Below, in pieces: positions 7,685 to 23,138 of a stretch of 64,000 bases of DNA. A model generated the notes under the pieces. It was not told the DNA's origin. It made no database searches and saw nothing but the letters and a program-made list of their open reading frames with translations. The position numbers and the translations under genes are program-made. The DNA comes from Terriglobia bacterium (lineage in GTDB: Bacteria; Acidobacteriota; Terriglobia; Terriglobales; Acidobacteriaceae), in NCBI GenBank assembly GCA_020072645.1, contig JAIQGK010000001.1:186001-250000 (forward strand), read 5' to 3'. Within the stretch, counting starts at the first letter, position 1. The number at the start of each line of letters is the position of its first letter.

Positions 7685-10018
7685 ATGGCTGAACTGTCAA
7701 CCATTTACGACTACATGCGTTCCTATGCCCCACTTCTGGGTGAACGCATACTTCAGGAATATCCAGCCCTGCAGCAATTCGAGGACCCGGTCTCGCCACG
7801 GCTAGAGCGGCTGCTCCGCAAGCCCAAGCCGGCTCAGAACGTTGCCATCATGGGCGTGGTCAAACGCTGGCAGCGGGCCAGAACTGCGATGTTTGTGGCT
7901 GAATGCGGCACCGGTAAAACGTTGATGTCGCTGGCTGCTGTTCACGTCCATAGTGCCGGCAAACCCTACACGGCCTTGGCCATGGTGCCGCCACACTTGG
8001 TGGAAAAATGGGCGCGCGAGGCGTTTCTCACCATTCCCGGAATCCGGGTATTTCTCATCGACGATCTGCGCAATGGGGGTGATGACAAGACACCGCATGG
8101 CATTAACGAAGTCCGTCTAAAGAGCGGCCGCATAGTCCGAGAAGGCCTACAGACCACGCTGAGCGACATGCGGTTGAAGAAGCAATACAAAAGCTCGCGC
8201 AAACGATGGGCCTCGATCTGTTCCAGACCAGCATTGTTCATTGTCGGGCGCGAACGAGCCAAGCTCGGCTATTTCTGGCGGCACGCCTACAGGGTCCCCC
8301 GTTCAGGGCCCAGCCTCGGCTGTGTGGTCAATTCCGATACAGGCAGCCCAGTAATTGTTGATGGGGGCCGTCTCACGGTTGCCGATTTTCGCAAGGCCAA
8401 GATTGCGGAAGTCATCGAAGCTCGCGACGAGAAACCATGCAAGCAGGCCTACAGTCCGATGTGGCAGGCCGACCCGGAAAAGATCCACCGCATGGCGCCT
8501 ATTGAGTTTATCGGGCGATATATGCCCGGCTGGTTCGATTACGCCATCTGCGATGAGATTCACCAACTCGCGGGCGACACAGCCCAAGGCAATGCTCTCG
8601 GGACGCTCGCTGCCTGCACGGACAAGATCGTAGGACTCACCGGCACGCTGCTCGGCGGCTACGCCGACGATCTGTTCAACACGCTGTTTCGTCTGGAAGC
8701 CGCCAAGATGAAGCAACGCGGCTACGAGTTCGGCGCTGCGGGCCGCAGCGCTTTTGCGCAGGACTACGGAGTCCTTGAAACCATCACGAAGATTGAGCCG
8801 GCTGAGAACGCCTGCTCGAAGGCCAAGGCCACCACCATGGTACGGCGCAAGCCGGGAGCTTCACCGCTTCTGTTTGGCGAATTTCTGATGGACCTCTGTG
8901 CCTTCGTCTTTCTTGAAGACATCTCGGGTGAACTCCCGCCCTATGAGGAAACTTGTGTCAGCGTGCCTATGGAACCGCTGATGCGAGCGGCCTACGGCGA
9001 ACTGGAAGACGCGATTCGGACAGCATTGAAGGAGCACCGCGGCAATCGTTCCGTTCTGAGCATCATGCTCCACACCTTGCTCTTGTACCCTGATCATCCG
9101 TATGGCCTGGGTTCTCTATACGGGACAGAATTCGATCCCCAGCTTCAGCGCAAGATCAAGTTTCTGATTGCGCACACCCGCGATCTTCCCCAGGACCGGC
9201 TTCACGCAAAGGAACGCCGGCTGCTGGAAGAGATCAAACGGGAGCTGGCCGAGGGGCGCCGCTGCCAGGTCTTTGCCGTCTACACGCAGAAACATGATGT
9301 TACCGCCCGCCTGCGACAGATTTTAGAGAACGAGGGCATTCGGACCGCTGTTCTAAAAGCAAGTGTCGACACGTCAAAGCGCGAGGCCTGGTATGTCAAA
9401 CAAGTCAAAGAAGGTGTGCAGGTAGTCATCGGTCATCCCAAGCTGGTTGAAACCGGGCTGGACCTGCTCGATTTTCCCACCATCATCTTCTATGAGTCCG
9501 GCTATTCACTGCACACGCTCCGGCAGGCCAGCCGCAGATCGTGGCGCATCGGTCAAGCGCGGCCAGTACGGGTGAAATTCCTGTGCTACGAGAGCACGAT
9601 GCAGGGGTCTTGCCTGCGCTTAATGGGCAGGAAACTGCTGGTCGCACTCACCATGGAAGGCAAGTTCGCTGGAGAGGGCCTGCAGAGCATGGATGAAGAC
9701 GACGACATGCTCTCCGCGATGGCGCGGGAACTGGTAGAGAAGAACGGGATTGGAGACACTGCCGACGCTGTCTGGCGCTCGCTCAATGAAGAACATCAGA
9801 AGCTGTTTCCGGCAGTGCACAGCGCAATGGAAACCGAGGATGCTTCCGTGCTGATGCCTACCAGCGAAGACTCGCAAGCGACAGAGCTGATCGAGTCCGC
9901 AATCACCAGCGGCCCGGTGCTGGTGTTCGGGCAGAGCTCGGACGCACTACGTTCTTCCAGGCGCCGTCCGCGCACCAACTCAGTTCCAGAGCAACCCTCA
10001 TTGTTCAACTGGAATTAG
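7685..10018 (+). CDS. SF2 (DEAD/SNF2-like) helicase
   Basis: The 777-residue protein has a Walker A motif ECGTGKT (73-79), a Walker B/DEIH box (about 290-293), motif III-like LTGTLLGGY (about 317) and a C-terminal RecA-like lobe with GLDLL near 598 and the motif VI QASRRSWRIGQ (about 614-624). The QxSRRxWRIGQ form is that of SNF2-like translocases. About 130 residues separate Walker A from the DEIH box more than usual, with a basic insertion. It probably moves along DNA for element replication, transfer or repair. It lies between a methyltransferase and the DUF932 gene, with similar strand and codon use. Confidence 0.85.
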   Translation: MAELSTIYDYMRSYAPLLGERILQEYPALQQFEDPVSPRLERLLRKPKPAQNVAIMGVVKRWQRARTAMFVAECGTGKTLMSLAAVHVHSAGKPYTALAMVPPHLVEKWAREAFLTIPGIRVFLIDDLRNGGDDKTPHGINEVRLKSGRIVREGLQTTLSDMRLKKQYKSSRKRWASICSRPALFIVGRERAKLGYFWRHAYRVPRSGPSLGCVVNSDTGSPVIVDGGRLTVADFRKAKIAEVIEARDEKPCKQAYSPMWQADPEKIHRMAPIEFIGRYMPGWFDYAICDEIHQLAGDTAQGNALGTLAACTDKIVGLTGTLLGGYADDLFNTLFRLEAAKMKQRGYEFGAAGRSAFAQDYGVLETITKIEPAENACSKAKATTMVRRKPGASPLLFGEFLMDLCAFVFLEDISGELPPYEETCVSVPMEPLMRAAYGELEDAIRTALKEHRGNRSVLSIMLHTLLLYPDHPYGLGSLYGTEFDPQLQRKIKFLIAHTRDLPQDRLHAKERRLLEEIKRELAEGRRCQVFAVYTQKHDVTARLRQILENEGIRTAVLKASVDTSKREAWYVKQVKEGVQVVIGHPKLVETGLDLLDFPTIIFYESGYSLHTLRQASRRSWRIGQARPVRVKFLCYESTMQGSCLRLMGRKLLVALTMEGKFAGEGLQSMDEDDDMLSAMARELVEKNGIGDTADAVWRSLNEEHQKLFPAVHSAMETEDASVLMPTSEDSQATELIESAITSGPVLVFGQSSDALRSSRRRPRTNSVPEQPSLFNWN

Positions 10019-10065: not shown

Positions 10066-10446
10066 ATGAGTGGAACCCTTGTAGCCAGCGGGCTGTCCAA
10101 AATTGGCCGGCCTGAGTTGGCGCAGATTGCAGTTCCTGAAGCAACCTCAACCCACAAACCCGTGCCTCATCACACCATCGTCGAGGCGCTGGTTGAAACC
10201 CTCAGCTTTCGCCACATCGGAGTTGTCCAGGAGGAATACGCTGTCTCTCCCGATGGCATGAAGATGTTTGGCGTGCTTGATCTGGAAACGCAAATGGAAG
10301 GATGCCGTTTCTCCATCGGCATTCGTAACTCCCACGACAAATCGATTCGTCTGGGACTCACCGCCGGCCTGCGGGTCTTTGTCTGCTCCAATATGGCATT
10401 CAGCGGCGATTTCACACCTGTGACAATGTTGCATAGTCAGGCCTGA
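10066..10446 (+). pseudogene. DUF932 gene, 5' half (interrupted by the element)
   Basis: A good ribosome site (AAGGAG) precedes the ATG. The first 116 residues align well with residues about 9-116 of the complete copy at 12287, for example EALVETLSFRHIGVVQEEYA and MFGVLDLE. After the Phe codon at 10411-10413 the reading frame enters element DNA, keeps TPV by chance, and ends after MLHSQA. The missing half lies at 22056-22433. DUF932 proteins are phage/plasmid proteins of unclear role. Translation of this half would give an unstable fragment. Confidence 0.9.
10401..10430 (+). other. attL, left junction of the serine-recombinase element
   Basis: The host reading frame (to GGCGAT, 10410) meets a TT core (10411-10412) and then the element arm CACACCTGTGACAATGTT (10413-10430). 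The reverse complement of this arm matches the right element arm (22041-22058) at 16 of 18 positions. TTCAC (10411-10415) is repeated at the right junction (22059-22063). Confidence 0.8.
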
Positions 10447-10554
10447 GATAGCAGTTCTCTTCGTCGTTACCAGGCACAAGACCGAAATCCAGCCTCTGGC
10501 ACTGGGCAAATTTATCCCGCATCTCCATCACAAATGTGAAGCCCAAGAGCGCAG

Positions 10555-12189
10555 CTAAGGCCGTGGCACACTGATCACGATGGAGTCATCAGCAAACCCA
10601 CGATCATTCTGCGTTAAGCGGAAAATGACGTTGATCATCTCTGTGTTTATGTCGATTTGCTGTATAAGGGTCCGGATAATCTCTCGTCTACGATGCCAGT
10701 CAGCGTTGGTGAGGTCGGCACCCATGGCAGTCGACAAATCGCGCACGCGTTGCACGGCCCATCGGAGGTTGTCTAAACGACTGACATCGCCTGTATCAGC
10801 CTTGATTTTGGCATCCAGATCAGTGATCCGTTCCTTGGTTCTATCCATCCGTAGTGTGAACTGTTCCTTGTCAATCAGCCCCGCGGTGAAGCCGTCGATC
10901 AAGCGCTCCACGGCGTGCTGCAGCTTGAGGCGCTGTGCTTTGAGACTCTCAAGGCGTTCCAAGGGAGCGCCGGAGTCACGACCTTTATACTCTTGCTCTA
11001 ATCTTCGAGGATTCGTTAGCAGTTCGCAGACCTGCTGCCACACAGCTGTTTCTAGGAACTTGCCCTCGACTTGCCTATTGCGGCAAATTGGTTCGCCGCC
11101 AAATCGATAGCCGTCGGACCCGCTGCATCGGTAATAAATGAAATCTTTCATCTGGCGCCCCGCGCCTAATTGGCGAATCGTTTTGCCGTAGTATGCATAT
11201 CCGCACAACGCGCAGCAGGTAAGCCCCTGCAGGAGATAGCCTGGCCTGCGTCGTCCTTGTCGCGCTCGGCTGCGATTCTCATCTAATTGGGCGTGCGCAG
11301 CGCGAAACAGCCCTGCGTCGACTAAGGCTGGAACGGAAATATACACCCACTCCTGTGGGCCAGCTTCGACTGGCCTGTTGCTTCGGTGTGGTTTCGATGG
11401 ACGCCCACGCGCCGCTCGCGGACGGGCCTGCTTTCCGCGTGGCATCATGTGTGTTTTCCCGTATGCGGCCTGTCCCCGATAAGCTGGGTTCTGGAGAACG
11501 TGCCACACAGCCTGTCTCGACCAGATTGGCTTCCTGGTAGCAGTGAGTTCACCTGCTTTCTCAAGCCGACGGCAAACCTCTGACAGACTGCAACGATCCT
11601 CAGCCACCCAAGCGAAAATCTGTTTGACGACCCGCGCCTGCCCGTCAACTGGCTCAAATCGTGCTTGGCCACCTCCCTCTTGAACAGACACATAGCGGTA
11701 TCCGAAGGGAGCGCCGGACATCACGTTGACCGATCCTCCTTGCGCAGCGTGCTTCTTGCCACGTCGACTCCGCTCCATGATCTTGGCTCGCTCATATTCC
11801 GCGACGATTCCTTGCACCTGCAGCAGCAAATCATCTTCTGGGCTCTTGCCGAGTGGCCGATTTAGAAAAACGACTTCGATCCCTCGCCGCTGCCACTCGT
11901 CGAGAAGCAGGACCTGGTAGGCGTAGTTGCGTGCCAGTCGGTCTGGTGAGTGGACATAGATCCGATCGATAGCGCCAACGCTAACAAGATCGCGCAACCG
12001 ATCCAAGGCTGGGCGAATAAGCGTGGCGCCGCTATACCCGTCATCGACAAACCGCCGCTCCGGCGGTACGGGTGTGCCGTCATTGCTAGCGCGCTCGCTG
12101 AGTACGGCAATCTGGCTTTCGATGGTGTGCGCGGCTGCCTGTTGTTCGCCGGAGACGCGCGCGTAGAACGCAGTTCGAATCGTGGTCAT
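10555..12189 (-). CDS. Large serine recombinase (integrase)
   Basis: I start at the ATG at 12189, which has GGAGG five bases upstream; an in-frame GTG at 12201 would overlap that site. The 544-residue protein has the resolvase catalytic domain (about 1-140) with ARVSGEQQ containing the nucleophilic Ser13, DGYSGATLIRPALDRL with family residues, and DRLARN. A recombinase domain (about 160-290) follows, then a zinc ribbon (CALCGYAYYG and YRCSGSDG with a further Cys) and a long coiled coil (about 400-480). This is the architecture of phiC31/Bxb1-type integrases, which join attP and attB with a 2-bp crossover. It is 125 bp from attL and would have mediated the insertion. Confidence 0.95.
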   Translation of the reverse strand: MTTIRTAFYARVSGEQQAAAHTIESQIAVLSERASNDGTPVPPERRFVDDGYSGATLIRPALDRLRDLVSVGAIDRIYVHSPDRLARNYAYQVLLLDEWQRRGIEVVFLNRPLGKSPEDDLLLQVQGIVAEYERAKIMERSRRGKKHAAQGGSVNVMSGAPFGYRYVSVQEGGGQARFEPVDGQARVVKQIFAWVAEDRCSLSEVCRRLEKAGELTATRKPIWSRQAVWHVLQNPAYRGQAAYGKTHMMPRGKQARPRAARGRPSKPHRSNRPVEAGPQEWVYISVPALVDAGLFRAAHAQLDENRSRARQGRRRPGYLLQGLTCCALCGYAYYGKTIRQLGAGRQMKDFIYYRCSGSDGYRFGGEPICRNRQVEGKFLETAVWQQVCELLTNPRRLEQEYKGRDSGAPLERLESLKAQRLKLQHAVERLIDGFTAGLIDKEQFTLRMDRTKERITDLDAKIKADTGDVSRLDNLRWAVQRVRDLSTAMGADLTNADWHRRREIIRTLIQQIDINTEMINVIFRLTQNDRGFADDSIVISVPRP

Positions 12190-12286
12190 AGAAGCCTCCA
12201 CAGAGAGGCTGAGAGAGCGCCGTGGCTGTGATCAAGTGCGAGGTCTGTGTTGGCAGTGAACTTAACTTGAAAGGAGAATGAATCAA

Positions 12287-13018
12287 ATGTTAGAAACAAG
12301 CACGCTTATTTCATGCACGGGCAAAATCACTCGGGCGGAACTGGCTAATCTGCCAACGCCGCCGGCAACAGCAACTCATATCCCAATCCCGCATGCCGCG
12401 GTTGTGCAGAGCCTAGTCGAAACCTTGAGCCACCGCCAGATCGGTGTGGTCGGCGAAGAGTTTGCTGTATCGAGCGGTGCAATGGAGATGTTCGGCGTGC
12501 TCGACCTGGAAACCAGTTTCGAGGGATGCCGATTTGCAATTGGGATTCGGAACGCGAACAACAAGCGATTCCGGCTGGCATGCACCGTCGGATTGCGAGT
12601 ATTCGTCTGCCACAACCTCGTGTTTCGAGGTGACTACACTCCCGTCTTGGCGAAACACTCGAAGCGCTTCTCGCTCGAAGATGCGCTCTCCATTGGCGTG
12701 GACAGGATGCAGAGGAATTTCGATCCGATGCGGCAGCAGGTCGAACGTTGGCGAGCGCTGCAGCTGTCTGCAGAGACTGCAAAGCTGACGATCTACCGGG
12801 CTTTCGTCGAAGGCGATCTAGACGTCCCGAAACACCTCGCCCGAAGAGTACACGAACTCTATTTCAATCCCCAGCATCAGGAGTTCGAACCTCGAACGAC
12901 GTGGAGCTTGTCAAACGCGTTCACCTCGGCATTCCAGGAACTAGACCCGATTCCGCGGTTTAAGGCCACTGCCAAGTTGGGTGGGTTCCTGGAGGCGCGG
13001 TTCTCCGGGTTGTTCTAG
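12287..13018 (+). CDS. Complete DUF932 protein carried by the element
   Basis: AAGGAG at 12271-12276 is too close to the ATG at 12278 but well placed for the ATG at 12287, which I use (243 residues). The protein is homologous along its whole length to the interrupted host gene (both contain SLVETLSHRQIGVVGEEFA- and MFGVLDLE-like blocks, and end in KATAKLGGFL). At the position matching the integration core the host codon is TTC (Phe) and here it is TAC (Tyr), so the core TT is TA. It is divergent from the integrase with an 97-bp shared control region. It probably supplies the function lost at the target. The biochemical role of DUF932 is unknown to me. Confidence 0.85.
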   Translation: MLETSTLISCTGKITRAELANLPTPPATATHIPIPHAAVVQSLVETLSHRQIGVVGEEFAVSSGAMEMFGVLDLETSFEGCRFAIGIRNANNKRFRLACTVGLRVFVCHNLVFRGDYTPVLAKHSKRFSLEDALSIGVDRMQRNFDPMRQQVERWRALQLSAETAKLTIYRAFVEGDLDVPKHLARRVHELYFNPQHQEFEPRTTWSLSNAFTSAFQELDPIPRFKATAKLGGFLEARFSGLF

Positions 13019-13025
13019 CGCATGG

Positions 13026-13053
13026 AGCGGTATTGGCCGACCGCTTCTTGTTT
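13026..13053 (+). terminator. Intrinsic terminator after the element DUF932 gene
   Basis: AGCGGT (13026-13031) and ACCGCT (13040-13045) form a 6-bp stem with an 8-base loop, followed by the T-rich TCTTGTTT. It stands 8 bases after the stop codon. The stem is short, so efficiency may be moderate. Confidence 0.5.
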
Positions 13054-13421
13054 AACCCAACTCATGAGTTATGGATGGGTCGTTTTGGCGTTTGAGCGTT
13101 TTTAAAGAGGAGAGCTTTGCGTAGGTGGAATAAACGCTGCGTCAACTTAAACTTTTCTGCGGGCAAGAAAATCAAGAATGGTGCGGGAGAATAAATTTGA
13201 ACCTCCGCTCCTCCTGGTCCCGAAATCGCCAACATCGAATGAAAGCAAACTACTTGCAGTTTTTAGAGTGGTGCTTCAGTCGGTAAGGGCGTTCTCTTTT
13301 GGTCGGGGTTCTCATTCAGAGATGAATGGGACCCCCTGAGTGGCAACCCCAGAGGAATGTTTCCTCCCACCCGATGTTGGGTTTATCTTGTAGCAACTTC
13401 GATCGAAGCCAACTGATCCTG
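13054..13421. other. Non-coding stretch in element, with tRNA 3'-end-like piece
   Basis: No convincing reading frame. On the minus strand, 13179-13205 reads GGTTCAA, a short degenerate segment, then CTCCCGCACCA, like the T-loop and acceptor end of a tRNA. The T-stem does not pair well and no 5' half of a tRNA was found in the next 80 bases. It may be a relic of an older tRNA-targeted integration, or chance. Confidence 0.3.
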
Positions 13422-14126
13422 TCAGCGTTGGCCTTCGGTGTTCCGCAAAGGAATACTCTTAGCTCCCTCGCATGATCTGCCCGAAAAATCTATCCCCTCT
13501 CCCGTAGGCTCAAGCTTTCGCAAAGACAGTTCATTTGCATGGATCCAATCCTTCCATAATTGAACTTGGCGGAGCAATTCCTGATTATCGAGCTTCGGAT
13601 CTGCCAGGTTCAGAGGTGGATTCGGAACGACCTTTGGAAGCTGCGCCAAGCTCCAGATACGCGGTTCTGATAAGAGCTTGGAATCCTGGCCAGGCTTGGT
13701 TTTTGCTCGATAGTATCGAATACGCGCTCCTGGTGACAGCAACTCTCGATACATCTGGATGGCATACCAGCCGCCTATATTCGGCAATTCCTCCAGTGCC
13801 ATTGATTGCATCTTCTGTTTGTCCGCACCAAGCAACTCGCAGACAAACTGCTGCTGCTCCGCTTTGTCTCCTAGTTTCGCGCGCGCCGTTCTGGATTTCA
13901 GCTTGTCCTCAGCAGAGAAAATTAATCCGACAGGACGAAATTCCAGCTTGTTACTGGAGAGGCCAACTGCGAGCAAGCTGCCTCGTCCTGCCAATGTCTT
14001 CGCCAGCGGTCTGCGGGAATGTTGTGCATCAACTGTCGGAATCGCATTTCGTATCTCCGGCGAGGAAGTTATTAGAGCTAAGAGTAGAAAAGTTGTCACC
14101 ATTTGGTTACCCCAAATCTCATTCAC
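13422..14126 (-). CDS. Secreted/HEAT-like paralogue, shortened
   Basis: GTG start at 14126; a Met at 14102 is an alternative (MVTTFLLLALITSS, a likely signal peptide). The 234-residue product shares a block with the N-terminal half of the next protein: ARAKLGDKAEQQQFVCEL against the related LAKLGDKEQQQKVFCDV, then PNIGGWYAIQMYRELLSPGA against PYIGGWFRTNILGSALSEHP, and a C-terminal LWKDWIHANELSLRKLEPTG matching the WQQWIEDHEQELMKLKPAGS region. It lacks the carboxypeptidase-regulatory-like and HEAT parts of that neighbour. It therefore looks like a tandem duplicate of the first half. Function is unknown; periplasmic location is likely. Confidence 0.65.
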   Translation of the reverse strand: MNEIWGNQMVTTFLLLALITSSPEIRNAIPTVDAQHSRRPLAKTLAGRGSLLAVGLSSNKLEFRPVGLIFSAEDKLKSRTARAKLGDKAEQQQFVCELLGADKQKMQSMALEELPNIGGWYAIQMYRELLSPGARIRYYRAKTKPGQDSKLLSEPRIWSLAQLPKVVPNPPLNLADPKLDNQELLRQVQLWKDWIHANELSLRKLEPTGEGIDFSGRSCEGAKSIPLRNTEGQR

Positions 14127-14189
14127 CGAACTCTCTTCAAGCCCGGCAGCATTGGAGCGGACGCTGCTGTGTGCCGTAACTCCGGGTTT

Positions 14190-15608
14190 TCAATTATCTT
14201 CTGAATCACTCTGAATACATGGAAGGTGGAGATGTGCGATGTAGTCTTGAGCCACCCGCAGCCTGGCCTGCTGCTCACTCGTAATGTTGGGTGCGGCTGC
14301 TTCCGACTCCAATTGGGCAACTACATCTTCTTCGCAAGTCCTGTGGATCAGGCCAAGCGCGTGAGCCGCATTCATTCTAATCAAATCGTTGTCACTTTCT
14401 TTGACCGTCCCGATCAGATATGAAACCGCCGGCTTTCCTATGACGGCTAGTGCGCCTATGGCAGGATACTGGATTTCCCTTGTCCCTAATTCATCCCCTT
14501 CAAAATCGAGCAGTCCAACCAGCGCGCCGGCGTAAGAACTGTCGCGGGACAGCGCGTAAAATGCCTTCTTGATTCTTGCGGGCTCGGCTTGGGTCCCAAA
14601 TCTCTTCGCATCAAGTAAGAACTGCAATGCAGCCCGGCTGTACTCGGTATCCCTTGCTAGGGATATGTTTAGCACGGCCTCCCGGCCGCTCTCGAGCCGT
14701 ATCTTTTGGCACTCTTGAAAATACCCAACCTCCTTGGCACAGACGCGGTATGGTCCGGGGGGGATGGTCTCTGCAATGGTTCCTTCGTCATGGGTTGTCA
14801 GAGTAAAGCGCAAACCACCCTCCTCATTGGGCTTCGCTCTGGCTGTGTCCCATTCCACTTCGAAACGCGCATTAGCGATCGGATTTCCATTGCTATCTAA
14901 GACTTTTCCGCTCAACAAAGGTTCTGGAGGGCAGTCCTGGTAGGAATAACTGCCCGCCGGTTTAAGTTTCATGAGTTCCTGCTCGTGATCCTCAATCCAT
15001 TGTTGCCATTTCGATGCATCTTCCTGGTATGTCAGCAGGCCGCCGAACGACAAACCCTCGGGCTCCTTGGGTGCCGGACCATCAGGAAAAAGCCGGCGCA
15101 ATTCTGAGACAGCATACCGCCTTAAATTGGGGTAGACGACGTCAGACCGGCTCCAGCCTATTTGGTTTTCCGGGTGCTCCGAAAGAGCAGAACCTAGGAT
15201 ATTGGTCCGAAACCACCCCCCAATATAAGGCAACTCAATCTCCGTAGCATATAAATGAATATCGATGTTCTTGCTGTAAACATCGCAAAAGACCTTTTGC
15301 TGTTGCTCCTTGTCTCCCAATTTCGCCAAGGCCAACCGGGCCGCGCCCGCAATAGATTCTTTATCTAAACCCCTGAGTTCATAGTCAGCAGGGAGTGGCT
15401 TTTCCTTGTTCTCTTGTCGGCGCACGATTTCTTGTAAGATTGGAATAAACCGCTGATCACCCGTTCCGCCTGCTTCGTAAATTGAGCTTCGATCTCCTCC
15501 TGCGAGCTTGCTCGCGAGAACTTGGTAGTTGTCAGACTGAAGCGATTGGCCGGCCATGCTACAGATAAAGAAGTAACATGCGAGCCAAAGAATAATAATC
15601 TTGTTCAT
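14190..15608 (-). CDS. Secreted protein with carboxypeptidase-regulatory-like and HEAT domains
   Basis: Start chosen at the ATG at 15608, which overlaps the stop of the upstream large gene (ATGA, 15605-15608) and begins a clean signal peptide (MNKIIILWLACYFFICSMAG). The N-terminal half is shared with the gene at 13422. Residues about 240-320 form a carboxypeptidase-regulatory-like beta sandwich (GKVLDSNGNPIANARFEVEW, PGPYRVCAKEVGY). Residues about 325-460 are helical repeats of HEAT type (AIGALAVIGKPAVSYLIGTV, AAHALGLIH). It probably binds another secreted protein, most likely the large upstream product. No catalytic residues are evident. Confidence 0.75.
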   Translation of the reverse strand: MNKIIILWLACYFFICSMAGQSLQSDNYQVLASKLAGGDRSSIYEAGGTGDQRFIPILQEIVRRQENKEKPLPADYELRGLDKESIAGAARLALAKLGDKEQQQKVFCDVYSKNIDIHLYATEIELPYIGGWFRTNILGSALSEHPENQIGWSRSDVVYPNLRRYAVSELRRLFPDGPAPKEPEGLSFGGLLTYQEDASKWQQWIEDHEQELMKLKPAGSYSYQDCPPEPLLSGKVLDSNGNPIANARFEVEWDTARAKPNEEGGLRFTLTTHDEGTIAETIPPGPYRVCAKEVGYFQECQKIRLESGREAVLNISLARDTEYSRAALQFLLDAKRFGTQAEPARIKKAFYALSRDSSYAGALVGLLDFEGDELGTREIQYPAIGALAVIGKPAVSYLIGTVKESDNDLIRMNAAHALGLIHRTCEEDVVAQLESEAAAPNITSEQQARLRVAQDYIAHLHLPCIQSDSEDN

Positions 15609-18600
15609 TGCGAAGTTCCTGGCGGGTTCATCCTGTCCCATTCGCGTTTACGAATCCGGCACGGATCGGGATGATCAGCCGCAGCTTGTCCAAACATCAA
15701 CTCATTCGTCTTATCCGCATCTACGATGTCAGGTGAGCCGAGGTAATGTCCCAGTTCGTGAGCCGTAACATTTTGCCTCGAATTGTGAATAAAAATTACA
15801 TGCGGATCCTGACTGACTTCAGGATCGCGAACCAGAGTTGGCCCGTTGATAGTAGCATGTCCAGATTCTGACAGTTTGGGATTACGAAAGGTGAACCCAT
15901 CCGGGTGGGTGGGAGGCGTTTGATCAAAGGCGTGCACATAAAAAACTAAGAGTTGATTGAGCGCGAAGTCTGCCACTGTGGCTTTTACAATCTCCTGCTC
16001 TTCGTCTTGTTTCTGTTCGCTATCAGGAAATGTCAGAGCCTTACTGCCGGCTGCTGCGTTGAGGTTGTAGTGCACCGATATAGCCTTAATCGGAGATACA
16101 GTAAGAGTAATCCCCGTCTGTTTGGGGAAGATGCGAGTCAGTTCATTTTGCAGTACTCCCTGTGTCGGTACGCTAGTCGGCTTCAATTTGCCATTCAGTT
16201 CGCTTACGCTATAAGGCGCAACGGCAAATTTTTTGTTCTGCTTAACATCTACTAAGACACGTCCAACCTCCGTCTGGGTCACACGGTTGATGAACTTTAG
16301 CCAACGAGGAGCAGAGGGAACGTCAATCGTTCCGTCCGGCTTAAACGTCGTCATTTCGGGCAGACCAACGGATTCGAACGTGACGTCGGTATCGACACCA
16401 GTCAAATGATCCGGGGTTATGGTGAAAACTGCGATATCGTTGCTTTTCAGGTCAATATTTTTCCAGTCGGGATAGTGCATCCTGACGACTTTCTGCGAAT
16501 CAGTCCTTTCCTGAGTAGTCCGTTGCGCGCCGGCAGTCGCTGCGAACGGAAGTACCAACGCGGTGGGCTGTAGGCTGTCGTCATAACCCGAACAAGCATC
16601 CGCCTGCACGGGCTTGAATTCAGGTTGTTTTTGCTGGCCCGAATTTCCATCGAAATCGACTGGAAAGCCTGCACTGATTTCATCGTCCAAGGATGTGCCC
16701 GCCAGCGAGGTATCGACCACCTGCCTGGACCCAAAATCCCCCTCGACTAGGAACAAGCTCGGGTCGAGATACGAGTCAGGGTACACTCCCTCAACTGTTG
16801 GTGATGGCGTACCATTCATATCTACGAACTGAGTCCCTTGTGCATTCACATGAATGATGCCACCGTTGTCTGTCGCCGCAAGCGCAGCTAAGCTGCTCGT
16901 GCTCCACTTCGGGATACCACTTGCGACATCCACAGCTGTAATGCTCAGCCCTCGGCTGGTTATAAAAGCCGTGCCTTGGTCATTGCTTGAAATCTCGCCG
17001 TCGGCCGGTAGCGGCACTGTATACACCGGGCTGCCATCCAAAAGCCGAGACAGAACGAGTTGCTGCGGATCATTCGCGGTCGATGATCTCCCACCCCAGG
17101 CAAGCAATAGCCCTCCGTTGCTATCGGGAGCGATCCTTCTGAAGAAAGCCTGGGGCAGCTGTGACGCGCCCTTGTCAAAACCCCAACCGCCGACAAAGCC
17201 GCCTAAAGTGGCTTCACCGCTCCAGGATACGCTATTCACCGGGAGGTGTTGTACTGCGCCGGCGGGGGTGATTTGGGCTATACCCACACTTGCACTGTAC
17301 TGCATTTGACCGTCAAGGGCGCTCACGAAGTAAGCAGGATCTGCGGGCGGCGCTCCTGGTGGGACAAAAATTTTAGTGAGCGCGCAGTGTGAGTAGCTAT
17401 AGGCGACATTCTCTCCTGTCTCCATGACATATAAATTACCATCTGTTCCGACAATAGGCTGAATTGAATTCTCGCCAGCACCTCCCACCGGTAACGGAAC
17501 ATTGATTGGCCTCGCAGCGGAAAAATAAGCTGCACAAGGCTGCCACGGATTCGTAGAGGTGACGGCGGTGCCGTCAGGGTTCGTGGTGTCTGGCTGCTCC
17601 GAAGAGATTACGCTCCGCGAGGAGGGCAATCCGCCACGATACCTGAACTTTTCTGTACCTGTGCCATCGTCGAGCGCGATGAGAGGAGAATCGTGATTGT
17701 TTGTGTCGTCTCCCTCTGACCAGAAGTATATCGTACCGTCGGGTCCGATCGTCGGCTCGAATGTGACATTAGTTGGTGTTGTGTATGTCCACTTGGGCTT
17801 GCCATCGGGCCCATATCGATACAAGGTATTGAAATTGTCGTTGTCGCCGCAGCACTCACCCATCATCGTCAGAATGCCGCCGTCGTTAGTGCCGGCGGAG
17901 ACAATGGGAAAGATAAAGTCATTTCCTGGGTGCGGATTGAGGGTCACTTTCCACTTCGAGTGGCCGCTTTCGTCAAGTGCATCCACGATTGCCGTGGCGG
18001 TCTCGAATGATGTGAAGTAAAGATAAGGATCGTCCGGGGTATTCCGTCTTGCCTTTATTCCATCGGCAAAACCACCATTTTGTGTCTGCGGATAAAAGCT
18101 CCAAGCGGGCGTCCCCACGGGCGTGCTACCAGGCAAATAGATCATCGCCTTTGCCTGAGCAGTGCCCAGAGCAGACGTCGCGGTAATGGTCACTTCGCCC
18201 GGTTGCAGTGCCTGAAGGATAGCTGCTCCCGGAGTGGTATCTGAAGTGATTGTAGCGATCGTGGACTCGTCAACGCTCCAGGTTGCATCAGTGACGACAT
18301 TGCCCGCCGCGTCTGATACGCTGAGCTTGGCAGATGCTGCGACCACCAGACTAGTTTCGTCTGGCGTGACATAGATCGCCTGGGCCGCGAACCGAATGGC
18401 TGGGGTAAATGTGAATTGGACTCCATTACTCGGACCGCTGGCGGTTGTAACGACTACGGGACCGGAATGCACTCCTGCGGGAGCCGGAACAACGATCTGC
18501 GTGTCACTCCAGAAACTCGGAGTGGCCGCGAGGCCATTGAACGTTACTGTGCTGTTGTTTTGCGAAGAGACGAAATTCGACCCGAAAATGGTGACAACAC

Positions 18601-21154
18601 TACCAGCGACCCCGGCACTGGGACTGATGAATGAAATCACCGGCGGGGGCGGCAAGATGACCACGAAAGCAACGCCGTTGCTATTCGCTAGGCCGCGTGA
18701 GACCACAACGGGCCCGCTTTGGACCAGAGGAATGACAGCCGTGATGGAACTGTCGCTCCAGGAGATTACGTTCATGGCAACGCCGTTCAGTGAAATCGCA
18801 GCATTGCCCTGTGCGCCTCCGAAGTTGGTGCCAGTCACAACGATTTGGCTACCGGGTGCGGAAGTGATGGGCTGGCCGCCAGGTGGAACCGTGATGGGAG
18901 TGACAGAATCTATGTGCGGCGCATTCTGATCGAGGACGGATACGGATTCTAGCGCCACATAGGCAAAGCCATCATCACGCGTTACTTGATCGGTAAGTGT
19001 AATTTTTTGACCTGAAGAGGCGGCCTGGAACTGGATGGTGTACCCCTTTTCACTGAAATTATTGGGGGTTGAAAAGGCTTGCACGAAAGGCGCAGCACTG
19101 CCATCGCTCAAACTGACCCGCAAGGTGGATTCCCCATATCCCGACGCCAGATATAGCTTCAATGTGCGAAGGGTGGTATCCGCAGGAATTGTCAGGGTAA
19201 ATCCGTTCTTAAAAGCCTGCATCTTCATCTGGGTGGCGGTTCCAATTTGGGAATCCGTGGGAACACCGGAACTCCAACTGTAATTGACACCGCCGAGGCT
19301 GGCCGCGTCAATAGAGTGGGCAGAACCGTCGGCCAGTGTCTTAAAGTCACTGATTTCCGGGTTGATTCCTGCCTTACGGTCTGGAATTGAGCTTCCCCAA
19401 TGCACCCAATCGGATGCGCCTGCACTCAGATCAACACTGGCGGGAGAATCGACGGAAGCGGTCAAGAAGCCACCTGTGCCGACCTCAGTTATCAAGACCG
19501 GGGCCGACGTGGTACTCAGACCCTGACTGTTGGTTGCAGTCGCCGTTAGTAGATGGTCGCCTGGCGATGGGCTCGCGAGGGTGAAGTTGTAGGGAGTGGT
19601 GGCCGCATCGAAAACGTCCTGACCGTCACTGAGGAACGAAACGGAGCTGATGGCCCCGCCGATCTGAGACGCGCTGACAGTCACCGGCACGTCTGAAGGA
19701 GAAGTGAGGGTTTGCCCGTTTGTTGGAGAAGTTAGAGCCACTGATGCCTGTGCAGGCAGTAGAACTGCGGATTGCAATGACACATAGCCTGCCAGCCCAG
19801 AGGCTGCACCGTGATCCGTTTCCAAGATGTAATCAATGTTTAAAGTTTGGCCTGGCTGGGTAGCTTGGAACGTCAGCGTGTACGTGCCGTTCGTATGATG
19901 ATCGCCATTCGCTGCCACGATATCAACCGAAGAGTCAACGAAGGATGGAGCGCTGTTGTCACTCAGCGATGCGGTGAGTTGGCCTTGCGCTTCCCAATCT
20001 CCGACGTAAAGGAGCAAGGTCTGAGGAACCACATCCGCAGGAATGCTGAGATGAAATCCGTTGCCGGCGCCAGTAACCGATACACCGGTCGTCGTGCGGT
20101 TAGCCACGCCGAGTTGGAAGCCATCAGTCCAGCTGTATTCGATCTCGCCGTCGCTGAACTGAATTGGGGTAGTTGCCCCGATGAGACTGAAATCCGAAAG
20201 AAATCCAACACTTGTCACTAGAGGAAAGTCGGACGATGTACCCCAATGTGCCCAGTCAATTGCATTAGGCGAGGTTAGGGTGACCGATGTGACTGTCGGA
20301 GAAACAGTTCCTGACAAAAAACCGCCAATTGTGAACGGAAGCCCGTTGCTGGCCTGCCCGCCCACCGTCACAACCACATTGCCCGATGTGGCTCCGGGCG
20401 GTACTGACGCACTAATACTTGTGTCTGTCCAGCTTGCCACCGTTGCAGTGACACCGTTAAATGTCAACGTGTTGGTACCCTGGATTGAGCCAAATCCGGA
20501 GCCGATAATTGTCACCTGTGTTCCCGTAGGACCGCTTGCGGGCGACATGGTTGTGATTGTAGGAGATGCTTGCGAGTTGACGGTAAAGTTTTCAGTTGCC
20601 GCAACGGAGTCCACAAAAAGCCAAATCGTCTGCTGCCCTGGAGTGGCGCCTTGCGGGACATTGAATACGATCTGCGTGTCCGACCAGGTGGTGATGGTCG
20701 CCGCCGGGCCGAGGCTCAACGTGCTGCTGCCCTGCGTTGCCCCGAAGTTCGCTCCCGTAAGTGTCACCTGAGTTCCGACGGTTCCGCTTGCTGGACTGAT
20801 GCTGTTGATCGTTGGTGGTGAGGTGACCGTGAAGTTAAAATTATTGCTCGCTCCTCCAGCCGTCGTGACCTGAAGGGTTGCCAGACCAGGCGTTGTTGTC
20901 GTGGGTATGGTGACATTCAACTGCGAATCAGTCCAATACCAGGGAACAATCTGTGTTCCATTCAGAGTCAGTGTGCTGTTGCCCTGAGCATTCCCGAAGC
21001 CGGTTCCATTGATGATTTGTCCCCCGCCCACAGGCATGCTGCTATGGGCAACCGAAATGATTTGCGGTGCCGCTTGAGCTTGTGCATCCAGGTGGGTCAT
21101 CAAAATGCCTAGAAGGGAGAGAGCTGCCATCAAGCCTTGAATGAAACGCCGCAT
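15605..21154 (-). CDS. Giant secreted IPT/TIG protein with C-terminal zinc metalloprotease motif
   Basis: AAAGAGGAAC upstream favours the ATG at 21154 over one at 21220; the product is then 1849 residues and opens with a signal peptide (MRRFIQGLMAALSLLGILMT). Three IPT/TIG repeats (about 30-290) carry SPASGTVGTQVTLTGANFG-type motifs. Two copies of a beta domain with AxDWxHWGxS follow, separated by an Ig-like repeat, then two more IPT repeats, a Big_2-like domain and a PQQ/YVTN-like propeller (from about 1090). The C-terminus holds HELGHYLGSPD and later NELMFG, the metzincin zinc site (three His ligands, Glu base) and a possible Met-turn. It is probably exported to bind surface ligands and cut protein. 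It is the main cargo of the element. Confidence 0.85.
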   Translation of the reverse strand: MRRFIQGLMAALSLLGILMTHLDAQAQAAPQIISVAHSSMPVGGGQIINGTGFGNAQGNSTLTLNGTQIVPWYWTDSQLNVTIPTTTTPGLATLQVTTAGGASNNFNFTVTSPPTINSISPASGTVGTQVTLTGANFGATQGSSTLSLGPAATITTWSDTQIVFNVPQGATPGQQTIWLFVDSVAATENFTVNSQASPTITTMSPASGPTGTQVTIIGSGFGSIQGTNTLTFNGVTATVASWTDTSISASVPPGATSGNVVVTVGGQASNGLPFTIGGFLSGTVSPTVTSVTLTSPNAIDWAHWGTSSDFPLVTSVGFLSDFSLIGATTPIQFSDGEIEYSWTDGFQLGVANRTTTGVSVTGAGNGFHLSIPADVVPQTLLLYVGDWEAQGQLTASLSDNSAPSFVDSSVDIVAANGDHHTNGTYTLTFQATQPGQTLNIDYILETDHGAASGLAGYVSLQSAVLLPAQASVALTSPTNGQTLTSPSDVPVTVSASQIGGAISSVSFLSDGQDVFDAATTPYNFTLASPSPGDHLLTATATNSQGLSTTSAPVLITEVGTGGFLTASVDSPASVDLSAGASDWVHWGSSIPDRKAGINPEISDFKTLADGSAHSIDAASLGGVNYSWSSGVPTDSQIGTATQMKMQAFKNGFTLTIPADTTLRTLKLYLASGYGESTLRVSLSDGSAAPFVQAFSTPNNFSEKGYTIQFQAASSGQKITLTDQVTRDDGFAYVALESVSVLDQNAPHIDSVTPITVPPGGQPITSAPGSQIVVTGTNFGGAQGNAAISLNGVAMNVISWSDSSITAVIPLVQSGPVVVSRGLANSNGVAFVVILPPPPVISFISPSAGVAGSVVTIFGSNFVSSQNNSTVTFNGLAATPSFWSDTQIVVPAPAGVHSGPVVVTTASGPSNGVQFTFTPAIRFAAQAIYVTPDETSLVVAASAKLSVSDAAGNVVTDATWSVDESTIATITSDTTPGAAILQALQPGEVTITATSALGTAQAKAMIYLPGSTPVGTPAWSFYPQTQNGGFADGIKARRNTPDDPYLYFTSFETATAIVDALDESGHSKWKVTLNPHPGNDFIFPIVSAGTNDGGILTMMGECCGDNDNFNTLYRYGPDGKPKWTYTTPTNVTFEPTIGPDGTIYFWSEGDDTNNHDSPLIALDDGTGTEKFRYRGGLPSSRSVISSEQPDTTNPDGTAVTSTNPWQPCAAYFSAARPINVPLPVGGAGENSIQPIVGTDGNLYVMETGENVAYSYSHCALTKIFVPPGAPPADPAYFVSALDGQMQYSASVGIAQITPAGAVQHLPVNSVSWSGEATLGGFVGGWGFDKGASQLPQAFFRRIAPDSNGGLLLAWGGRSSTANDPQQLVLSRLLDGSPVYTVPLPADGEISSNDQGTAFITSRGLSITAVDVASGIPKWSTSSLAALAATDNGGIIHVNAQGTQFVDMNGTPSPTVEGVYPDSYLDPSLFLVEGDFGSRQVVDTSLAGTSLDDEISAGFPVDFDGNSGQQKQPEFKPVQADACSGYDDSLQPTALVLPFAATAGAQRTTQERTDSQKVVRMHYPDWKNIDLKSNDIAVFTITPDHLTGVDTDVTFESVGLPEMTTFKPDGTIDVPSAPRWLKFINRVTQTEVGRVLVDVKQNKKFAVAPYSVSELNGKLKPTSVPTQGVLQNELTRIFPKQTGITLTVSPIKAISVHYNLNAAAGSKALTFPDSEQKQDEEQEIVKATVADFALNQLLVFYVHAFDQTPPTHPDGFTFRNPKLSESGHATINGPTLVRDPEVSQDPHVIFIHNSRQNVTAHELGHYLGSPDIVDADKTNELMFGQAAADHPDPCRIRKREWDRMNPPGTSQ

Positions 21155-22040
21155 TGTAGTTCCTCTTTTGTAATTCATCGTTGGTGGAATTCCGTGCACG
21201 ACTACCGTGCGAATGCTCAAGTTCGTGATCCGGGTCTTCGCTCTTTGGTGACAATTTGTTTCGGCTTACCCGTCCGACATACTGTGCTTCGCCTGTATTT
21301 TTCAAAACCAGAACCGCTGATAGTCAGGGATGAACCGAGCGGGACTGACTAGATCTAGGGTGGGTGAAATGCTGGAGATGGCCCCCGGCAAAGGTAGTGG
21401 AGCCGAACAGGAAGTTCTCGCATCAGCAGAACAGCCCTAAGGAACCGCACGTTTTTTACCATGGTAATCTATTATCTCGAAGCAGTTGATTACCTTTTCT
21501 TCTATCGTAGGGCGCAATTGCTGTTGCAAGTTGGACGAGTGTATAGAGTAGAAATGCGTTTTGCAAGATATTTTTTCTACTCCATATTAACCATCAAATT
21601 AGTATGTACCTGGCGTGAGGTATCAAGTACGGGGCTCTCCCTATATCTTTTATCGTTACTGAGGTGGCGCGTTATTCTAATAAGGTGATCCGCCGAGCTG
21701 AAAGAGTACTGGCAAATTCCCATAATGGAATTCACGAAGGTCTTATTTCCGTTTTAGGAAAAATAAAATTACTTGCCAGCTAATTACATGTATCTCGAGC
21801 GCCATTGACCCATGAAAGGCGGGTCGTCCTTATCCTGGTTCTTTTCACATTCAAGATTTTGCATGGACAAGCAAGACACGGGCAATCGGGCTGATCTGCT
21901 CGGAGTCCACTCACCGTAACAGCGACCGTTGATCTTCGTTGTGGTTGATCATGAAGCCACCGAGGCTCACACCAAGGGATCACCGGATTCACCGAGATTC
22001 CTCGTCGGCTCTGGGAAGTCAAGACTGACGGGAATTTGGA
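21155..22040. other. Non-coding right end of the element, AT-rich in part
   Basis: Upstream region of the giant gene, presumably holding its promoter. Bases 21461-21790 are distinctly richer in A+T than the surroundings and contain a 75-codon open frame (21461-21688) that has no ribosome site and unusual composition, so I do not call it a gene. The last 250 bases before the att arm show nothing I can name; they may hold integrase or excision-factor sites. Confidence 0.4.
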
Positions 22041-22070
22041 AACATTGTCTCAGGCGTGTTCACTCCTGTC
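22041..22070 (+). other. attR, right junction of the element
   Basis: The element arm AACATTGTCTCAGGCGTG (22041-22058) is followed by the TT core (22059-22060) and then host sequence CACTCCTGTC (22061-22070), which continues the DUF932 frame as Thr-Pro-Val-Leu-Ala. The arm is the inverted partner of 10413-10430. Confidence 0.8.
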
Positions 22071-22433
22071 CTGGCCAAGCACACCAAGAGCTTCAACCTG
22101 GTTGACACGCTCTCTGTCGGCGTGGACAGGATTCAACGGAACTTCGAGCCGCTGCAGCGCCAGGTTGAGACGTGGAGGAAGACGCAGATCACCGACGAGA
22201 CAGCGAAGCTGATCTTCTACTCCGCATTCATTGATGGCAAGCTGGAAGCTCCCAGGAGCCTCCTGCCCGAGGTCCACCGGCTCTACTTCGAGCCGCAGTA
22301 CCCGGAATTCTCGGCCCGGACCATGTGGAGCCTGTCGAACGCCTTCACCAGCGCCTTCAAGAAGCTTGATCCGGTGCCGCAGTTCAAAGCAACGGCCAAG
22401 CTGGGCGGCTTTCTCGCACAATTGCCGAATTAG
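22056..22433 (+). pseudogene. DUF932 gene, 3' half (interrupted by the element)
   Basis: From the Phe codon at 22059 the frame encodes TPVLAKHTKSFNLVDTLSVG and on to the conserved end KATAKLGGFLAQLPN, matching the C-terminal half of the complete copy at 12287. No ribosome-binding site precedes the GTG at 22056, so this half is unlikely to be translated. Joined in frame to 10066-10413 it gives a normal 239-residue DUF932 protein. It was originally co-directional with the helicase and next to the PRTRC genes. Confidence 0.9.
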
Positions 22434-22541: not shown

Positions 22542-23138
22542 ATGTTCAAAGAATTACAGCCTCTGCTCGCGAAGCGTTCGCTGACAATCACGGTCGCCGC
22601 GCTGGGTGAGGGGCAAATCAGGGTCAATGTTATCCCGCATTCGCGTCCTGAAGACACCAAAGTCAACGAACAGATCAAGTATTCACACAAAGATGAGGTC
22701 GCTGCGATTCCGGAGGCGGCCGTGAAAGCCCTGACAACGCCGATCTCGCTGACTGGAACGGCAGAAGAGATTGACGCGAGGCTCTCAGATGTACTGCTTC
22801 AATTCGTCGAGTCCCATAGCCAGCTTCAGGCCACCTTTGATCGGGCCAGTGCGGAAATCTCGGATGCCGTGAAAGCGATTGACGAACGCAATAAGAACAA
22901 GTCGAAGGCCAAAACCGCCGGCGCCAAGACCGAGCAGAAGCAAGATCCCAAGCCAAAGCCCGACGACGCCAAACCCAAAACTGAGGAGACTCTGCCGCTC
23001 TGGTGGACAGACAAATCAGTTGCGCCGCCCGGAGCCCCTGCGCCACAAAGCACGAACTCCCCAGCAGCACCGGCCAATGGTTCAGCGGCAAACAGCCAAT
23101 CCACGAATGCACAGGAGGCAGGGTCTCTATGCCAGTAA
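22542..23138 (+). CDS. PRTRC system protein E
   Basis: AAGGAG lies 6 bases before the ATG. The 198-residue protein has the family N-terminus (MFKELQPLLAKRSLTITVAA), a conserved block to about residue 90 and then a helix, followed by a lysine/proline-rich low-complexity tail from about 115. PRTRC (ParB-related, ThiF-related cassette) genes occur together on plasmids and integrated elements; the system's function is not known. E heads the run E-C-F-B-ThiF here. The next start overlaps its stop (23129-23138), so the operon is tightly coupled. Confidence 0.85.
   Translation: MFKELQPLLAKRSLTITVAALGEGQIRVNVIPHSRPEDTKVNEQIKYSHKDEVAAIPEAAVKALTTPISLTGTAEEIDARLSDVLLQFVESHSQLQATFDRASAEISDAVKAIDERNKNKSKAKTAGAKTEQKQDPKPKPDDAKPKTEETLPLWWTDKSVAPPGAPAPQSTNSPAAPANGSAANSQSTNAQEAGSLCQ

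Follow-up and report, generated by a model that had tools for sequence, protein, structure and literature searches.

How can an integrative element enter the middle of a useful gene? The question is raised by a 64,000-nucleotide stretch of a Terriglobia bacterium of the Acidobacteriaceae (the window: GenBank assembly GCA_020072645.1, contig JAIQGK010000001.1, positions 186,001 to 250,000; G000:C1:186001-250000), which belongs to a 6.4-Mb genome. Here an element at positions 10413-22060 splits a DUF932 gene at a TT dinucleotide, with a helicase gene on one side and a gene for PRTRC E on the other. We consider it probable that this is an integrative element of a large serine integrase, which splits the DUF932 gene and carries a spare copy with a mismatched core dinucleotide, and that related insertions free of the integrase form rows. 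A first-pass annotation of this DNA had described a serine-recombinase element within a DUF932 coding sequence, frame-restoring at a TTC codon. Going beyond it, we found dozens of 3'-half copies of DUF932 in related genomes that start at the core, most of the well-preserved ones directly after the same 26-bp arm of the integrase, and some of the copies in rows of up to five.

Insertion at a TT core within the DUF932 gene

The left junction reads GGCGAT-TT-CACACCTGTGACAATGTT and the right junction AACATTGTCTCAGGCGTG-TT-CACTCCTGTCC (Table 1). The core TT falls in a TTC phenylalanine codon in the middle of the DUF932 target, and fusing the flanks at TT yields a single open frame of 239 amino acids. 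Compared with an uninterrupted locus of the same genus (G118:C133), the fused flanks align without a gap at the join, with 88% identity over 419 bases on the left and 80% over 631 bases on the right. The source genome itself contains a second, uninterrupted copy (G000:C3) in the order helicase, DUF932, PRTRC E. Overall, PRTRC E directly follows DUF932 in four mapped uninterrupted loci (G118:C133, G168:C43, G000:C3 and G319:C164); these are the empty, intact sites for which the first-pass annotation had proposed to search. The two element ends, termed the P' arm (left) and P arm (right), form an 18-nucleotide inverted repeat centred on TT in which 16 of 18 positions are complementary, and the chance of such a match is about 2e-8 for one fixed pair of 18-mers. 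A decayed second copy of the integrase element, at G000:C9 (L014, locus coordinates 8411-9772) in the source genome, likewise directly follows a DUF932 5' half, and it has the same P' arm as the element in the window.

Next to the left end lies a gene for a 548-amino-acid protein with Resolvase N-terminal, Recombinase and zinc-ribbon domains, all over their cut-offs, and judged by these domains the protein is a member of the large serine recombinase family. It matches the TP901-1 integrase (E 1.5e-9) with YARVS aligned to YTRVS, the serine of which we take to be the catalytic residue. The junctions, the 239-residue fusion and these domains thus bear out the first-pass description, as does the complete DUF932 gene beside the integrase, in which TAC stands where the target has TTC.

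Table 1. Features of the element and its flanks; positions are those of the window.
Feature	Positions	Strand	Evidence or remark
SNF2-like helicase gene	7685-10018	+	Pfam Helicase_C; synteny; left of the target at empty and filled sites
Interrupted DUF932 gene, 5' half	10066-10412	+	Sequence; flank joining
attL core dinucleotide TT	10411-10412	.	Junction reading
P' arm, left element end	10413-10430	.	Inverted repeat of the right end
Large serine integrase, 548 amino acids	10555-12201	-	Pfam Resolvase, Recombinase, Zn_ribbon_recom; best PDB match TP901-1 integrase catalytic domain
Complete carried DUF932 gene, 246 amino acids	12278-13018	+	Divergent from the integrase; dN/dS 0.04-0.08 among four carried copies
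TAC codon where the target has TTC	12635-12637	+	Core TA, not TT
Cargo open reading frame, 234 amino acids	13422-14126	-	Without Pfam match at E 0.01
Cargo open reading frame	14190-15641	-	CarboxypepD_reg-like and HEAT_2 matches, all under gathering score
Cargo open reading frame, 1871 amino acids	15605-21220	-	Five TIG stretches and bacterial Ig domains
P arm, right element end	22033-22058	.	Same 26 bp kept at other junctions
attR core dinucleotide TT	22059-22060	.	Junction reading
Interrupted DUF932 gene, displaced 3' half	22059-22433	+	Sequence, similarity, flank joining
PRTRC E gene, right of the target	22542-23138	+	NCBIfam TIGR03741

A carried DUF932 gene with a mismatched core

The carried copy is a marginal match to Pfam DUF932 (PF06067; E 2.3e-4, 21.4 bits, gathering score 23), but it shares 62% identity with the G000:C3 copy, which exceeds the DUF932 cut-off. 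Among 397 genomes of the order, five (the source genome counted) encode an integrase sequence of at least 68% identity, and a divergent DUF932 gene adjoins the integrase in all five. These integrase-bearing records are metagenome-assembled genomes (MAGs) of Acidobacteriota, labelled Terriglobia, Acidobacteriaceae or Candidatus Sulfotelmatobacter, and their isolate names suggest an origin in soil and permafrost. The carried genes of the other four (G362, G124, G256 and G209) are 83-86% identical to that in the window. Three of the five integrases are complete (the window, G362 and G124), that of G256 breaks off after about 250 residues, and that of G209 is decayed; in a sixth case, L163, about 51 integrase residues are left beside carried-gene halves that are about 90% identical. 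A wider search at E 1e-100 across 376 genomes of the phylum matched only the source genome and G052, whose integrase is a relative of 40% identity and where DUF932 is absent from the stretch fetched.

In a phylogenetic tree, four carried copies form a single clade (support 98/88) apart from the target genes, and a ratio of nonsynonymous to synonymous substitution rates (dN/dS) of 0.04-0.08 among them indicates purifying selection. The carried gene probably supplies the function lost by the split target. The predicted DUF932 structure is weak (predicted local distance difference test score, pLDDT, of 65), and a PDB search found nothing that reached E 0.001. In the model, the first half of the carried protein is alpha/beta and the second half helical, and the target codon lies between them, in a low-confidence stretch at residues ~93-131; because of this position, exchange of the 3' half may exchange a domain.

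Carried genes have the core TA in five of six cases (the window, G362, G256, G209 and L163) and TT in G124. The core of the element's own att site is readable in four elements: TT in the window, in G362 and in G209:C29, the last read from a right junction 27 kb away that presumably belongs to the same element, and TA in G124. Carried and att cores differ in all four, as TA/TT in three elements and as TT/TA in G124. In the genus of G124 (g24), TA is also the core of three of the four DUF932 genes with both halves read (G098:C79, G271:C195 and G271:C250; TT in G098:C106), and the sole junction found there has TA between the P arm and the 3' half (G271:C232); a scan with a TA version of the junction motif across nine genomes of g24 matched only G124's own site. 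Outside g24, TT is the core in the intact target genes read and in the arm junctions before 3' halves.

The mismatch has thus been kept though both cores changed, which is the best evidence that it matters. Serine-integrase recombination needs matching cores. Because the carried and att cores differ, the integrase should not finish recombination at the carried gene, and on these sequence comparisons the mismatch supports protection of the carried gene from the element's own integrase.

Two of the related elements have unusual left flanks. At G362:C9 (L028), around 8560-8690, the integrase-side end meets the inverted start of a DUF932 3' half, with the core AA in the gene's reading direction, an arrangement that resembles insertion in reverse orientation. 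At G124:C98 (L029), around 8052, the TA-core integrase element sits at a non-DUF932 site; because TA is palindromic, orientation should be uncontrolled there.

Half-genes, arms and cargo in related genomes

A 22-base motif composed of the P arm, TT and the first bases of the 3' half, with up to three mismatches allowed, matched 82 times in 48 of the 397 genomes, compared with five matches for the reversed pattern; some of the 82 are chance. In viral_contigs we found neither a relative of the integrase nor the exact motif, and on this ground a viral origin of the element was rejected. The stretches fetched contain 51 sites with arm and TT (at most 3 mismatches in 19), of which 34 directly precede a detectable 3' half. 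We also chose 24 nearly complete displaced halves by protein similarity alone, requiring a near-full-length match in one piece and excluding broken halves. The arm stands in front of these with at most 3 of 19 mismatches in 17 and at most five in 21, and the same position in 11 intact genes shows 10-12 mismatches to the arm. Across 55 junctions, the DNA, which is non-coding, is conserved from -26 to TT and no further upstream, with conservation of the arm centre and TT biased upward because some of the junctions were located by the motif itself.

In 16 genomes selected for their matches, a profile search gave 72 partial copies once neighbouring pieces had been merged by hand. Not counted among them are copies of full length, near-full copies that are shortened or have a frame shift (G168:C74, G168:C51 and G117:C75), G361:C57 (which starts at profile position 17), the carried gene of G209:C29, which is decayed, and G293:C212, which is cut by a contig end. 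Fifty-seven copies start at the core, 13 start elsewhere, and two are 5' halves, both in the source genome and each adjoining an integrase. Simple deletion after a split insertion is disfavoured as the source of the 3' halves, because it should leave orphan 5' halves, of which there are 2 in 72 against 57 core starts. The first-pass annotation had tied the split arrangement to the element's integrase; this holds only in part, since displaced 3' halves are common without it (15 of the 16 match-selected genomes), but the gene upstream is intact at four row starts. These are all the rows with a start in the stretch fetched.

Rows differ in length. G067:C15 has one insert between the intact gene and PRTRC E, G168:C16 has two junctions and a remnant ahead of PRTRC E, G209:C133 has four junctions, and G209:C129 has a single one. 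In G209:C19, half-genes start at five points within 54 kb; the row start there lies beyond the stretch fetched, as it does in G164:C119, G362:C20 and G168:C43. Within the mapped rows there is no Recombinase-domain match and, among the matches listed, no tyrosine recombinase (Phage_integrase). Outside them, at G344:C47:12845-14368, a tyrosine recombinase match precedes a displaced DUF932 3' half by about 0.6 kb, and because of this match some units may carry their own recombinase. Row cargo is varied: 81 of the 94 listed open reading frames of at least 150 amino acids, scanned together, matched 131 Pfam families, the commonest by two reading frames, and three of seven cargo reading frames scanned individually had a Pfam match. 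Cargo also matches models of the defence proteins MADS, DrmC and PD-T4-6 kinases, which is not proof of defence.

What do the half-genes record about movement? Of the 24 displaced halves, 23 are full length and stop-free, and the remaining one is shorter and also stop-free; their median dN/dS is 0.045, versus 0.048 for intact genes. They are about equally distant from the intact gene of their own genome and from those of other genomes, with the exception of G209:C56, which is 96% identical to G209:C129. This constraint and equal distance indicate that for most of their history the displaced halves were part of functional genes elsewhere. The intact genes G209:C133 and G327:C97, from different genera, differ at one position in the 400 bp before the core and are 88.5% identical after it; identity is again 80-97% beyond 400 bp upstream, so the whole locus was not transferred. 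In G067, the displaced half beside PRTRC E is 85% identical to the G319 gene, the current half 78% and the 5' halves 90%; over the first 40 bp the trend is opposite, with the current gene at 95% and the displaced half at 80%.

Flanks and cargo can be compared in the same manner. A 2.9-kb block of 95% identity begins exactly at the core both in G209:C112, where it follows the P arm, and in G344:C64, where it follows the 5' half; from their sequences, these are the filled and unfilled versions of one flank. A 2.6-kb cargo block lies directly after the 3' half in G369 and 16 kb after the gene in G327 (79% identity). In neither G327 nor G209:C56 did a search reveal a concealed junction ahead of the shared cargo, which makes these pairs weaker as cassette evidence. 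Shared cargo was also met in reversed orientation and was not used as evidence of cassette movement. The 3' half of G209:C129 is a mosaic with respect to G209:C56, with 85-90% identity in the first 80 bp and 98-100% up to base 300.

Two further observations concern the same junctions. In L073, L079, L120, L143 and L147, the duplication runs about 400 bp beyond DUF932 and includes a small open reading frame starting MFPLFPLGQIVATPGAL. At G234:C237 (L032, 1004-3270), the same TT, here within a junction of P arm and 3' half, is occupied by a 2.3-kb insert that encodes a second serine recombinase (40% identical) and has different dyad ends of its own, so that a second integrase family is present at that site.

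Mechanism, rival explanations and known systems

In the mechanism that we propose, an attP consisting of the P arm, TT and the P' arm as a dyad would have recombined with the TT of the DUF932 phenylalanine codon and thereby split the gene. The junctions, the dyad and the empty sites are read from the sequence, and the 548-residue integrase is the presumed agent. The core mismatch would bar the carried gene as a landing site and would stop the element from splitting itself by recombination between attP and the carried gene, which would in turn replace the lost function. In the related integrase-free insertions at the same TT, the host gene would stay intact with a foreign 3' half, and the older 3' half would be pushed downstream behind a P arm; this arrangement is seen at the row starts, and from it we infer the route. 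For the origin of the integrase-free units, we make no choice among an integrase acting in trans, self-splitting of elements whose spare has a matching core, and homologous recombination at the half-gene. The accessible text of PMC3783163 states that other site pairings do not recombine, which, so far as that text goes, weighs against an integrase in trans and favours self-splitting by attP x attB.

Several findings weigh against the proposed mechanism. The integrase is full-length in only three of the six cases, and the left flanks are odd both in G124, at its non-DUF932 site, and in G362, with its inverted 3'-half piece. On the tree, the core mismatch amounts to two states and one inferred switch (G124), and it counts as a single switch because the TA copies share ancestry. 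TA is also present in the near non-carried relatives G098:C79 and G271:C195, so it was not necessarily gained for immunity and may have been inherited. The first-pass proposal that the carried copy is immune to re-integration therefore stands as far as the mismatch, swapped in g24, should block strand joining; that TA arose for this purpose does not follow. Seventeen of the 51 sites with arm and TT lack a detectable 3' half (about nine of these retain its first bases, and the others resemble chance or different events), and three of the 24 displaced halves have no recognisable arm. G344 and G361, both with displaced halves, have no Recombinase-domain match genome-wide, and since only five of 397 genomes encode the integrase at the 68% threshold, the link between integrase and rows is indirect. 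Finally, the mosaic 3' halves of G209:C129 and C56 show that homologous recombination also acts.

This last point leads to a rather doubtful account in which rows are made mainly by homologous recombination: circles with about 380-800 bp of DUF932 3' half would enter any 3' half via RecA, with no need for the integrase. The G209 mosaic, the first 40 bp of G067 that run against the trend of the remainder, the duplications that often extend past the gene into the small neighbouring reading frame, and the failure to find a serine recombinase in the mapped rows all fit this account. It is harder to reconcile with the many different cargoes that each end in their own copy of the 26-bp arm at TT, and with the one genus pair whose identity breaks at the core. 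Similarly improbable in our view is that the integrase-free inserts are decayed elements, whose left end joined the matching core of a carried gene, and from which the integrase and carried 5' half were deleted to leave a hybrid gene, cargo, and a P arm before a 3' half. The right part of the element (carried gene, cargo, P arm and 3' half) is indeed laid out like a row unit, attP x attB recombination within one molecule in direct orientation is the canonical reaction, and such decay would explain the loss of the integrase, the foreign current 3' halves and the mismatched cores of the surviving complete elements. No intermediate was found, however, and none of the 30 intact genes in the tree outside the four carried copies groups with the carried-gene clade, for which reason carried genes were rejected as donors of the current 3' halves.

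The carried DUF932 may instead be an ordinary cargo or accessory gene of the target's family, for instance for directionality or transfer, with TA inherited and non-protective; we think this unlikely, although the carried copies form a separate clade, TA occurs in the two non-carried genes just named, and the G124 element carries the gene at a non-DUF932 site. Against it, the carried core is TT exactly where the att core is TA, and the carried copies, full-length and under purifying selection, are as expected for a working DUF932 protein, if not specifically a replacement. An assembly or binning artefact is very improbable: the named relatives are MAGs and some units stop at contig edges, but the motif, found in 48 of 397 genomes, is far above its control, rows are embedded in long contigs (212 and 264 kb in G168), and the arm is conserved outside coding sequence.

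Do these islands belong to a known system? The Ccr proteins of the staphylococcal cassette chromosome (SCC) are large serine recombinases. Like SCC, SCCmec and pseudo-SCC, the DUF932 loci are islands of a site-specific recombinase after an intact gene, with serial units, repeated att sites and units lacking a recombinase. The part of PMC4723332 available describes 15-bp direct repeats downstream of orfX (rlmH) and one unit without ccr. Set against that 15-bp repeat at the gene's 3' end, the repeat here is the whole second half, about 124 codons, and the form with an integrase both splits the gene and brings a second, complete one. Moreover, Ccr models match the integrase only distantly, the best being CcrB with 84.7 bits against a cut-off of 900. 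By these sequence criteria the islands are not SCC, having neither a Ccr recombinase nor integration at the rlmH 3' end, with the target in mid-DUF932. By analogy with that partial description, they would behave like SCC composite islands with a half-gene instead of the 15-bp repeat.

Integrons are cassette arrays of unrelated cargo parted by related recombination sites, and their integrase IntI is of the tyrosine type. The rows resemble them in that related sites part unrelated cargo units, and the mapped units yielded no integrase. They differ in that the mapped rows contain no tyrosine integrase among the matches listed (attC hairpins were not looked for), and that some genomes have a serine integrase at another locus, whereas in others none was found. 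Integron membership is not supported, and the row arrangement, as read from the sequence, fits cassettes moved in trans. A fuller version of this idea, to which we give little credence, is a serine-integrase counterpart of the integron: a living DUF932 gene in the PRTRC locus of soil Acidobacteriota would be the platform, and a cassette circle of 3' half, cargo and 26-bp arm would be moved in trans. Captures would rebuild the gene, rows would record captures, the protein would diversify, and the integrase-bearing element would be guarded by its mismatched full platform gene.

Elements that restore gene ends are known at tRNA genes and at icd, with phage 21 and e14. There too, the gene receives its missing part from the incomer, and the old part is displaced; here half a protein is restored, by diverged versions, and the 10413-22060 element brings a complete gene. 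A systematic survey, PMC10083194, describes in its accessible text large serine recombinase elements that disrupt target genes, with a central core dinucleotide that can be exchanged to direct recombination. They share with the present element an integrase specific for its target gene, and the survey's main text, so far as accessible, contains neither the term 'DUF932' nor mention of a carried target copy with a mismatched core. In our literature search, no title or abstract start described this arrangement; subscription papers were incompletely covered, and we do not claim its absence from print.

If our reading is right, an element can land midway in a useful gene because it brings a spare that its own enzyme cannot recombine, and the paired cores (TA/TT and TT/TA) make this protection directly testable. 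The half-gene rows would represent a new way of stacking foreign DNA, perhaps including defence genes, after a whole gene, and would offer a natural supply of serine integrases whose sites are well defined.

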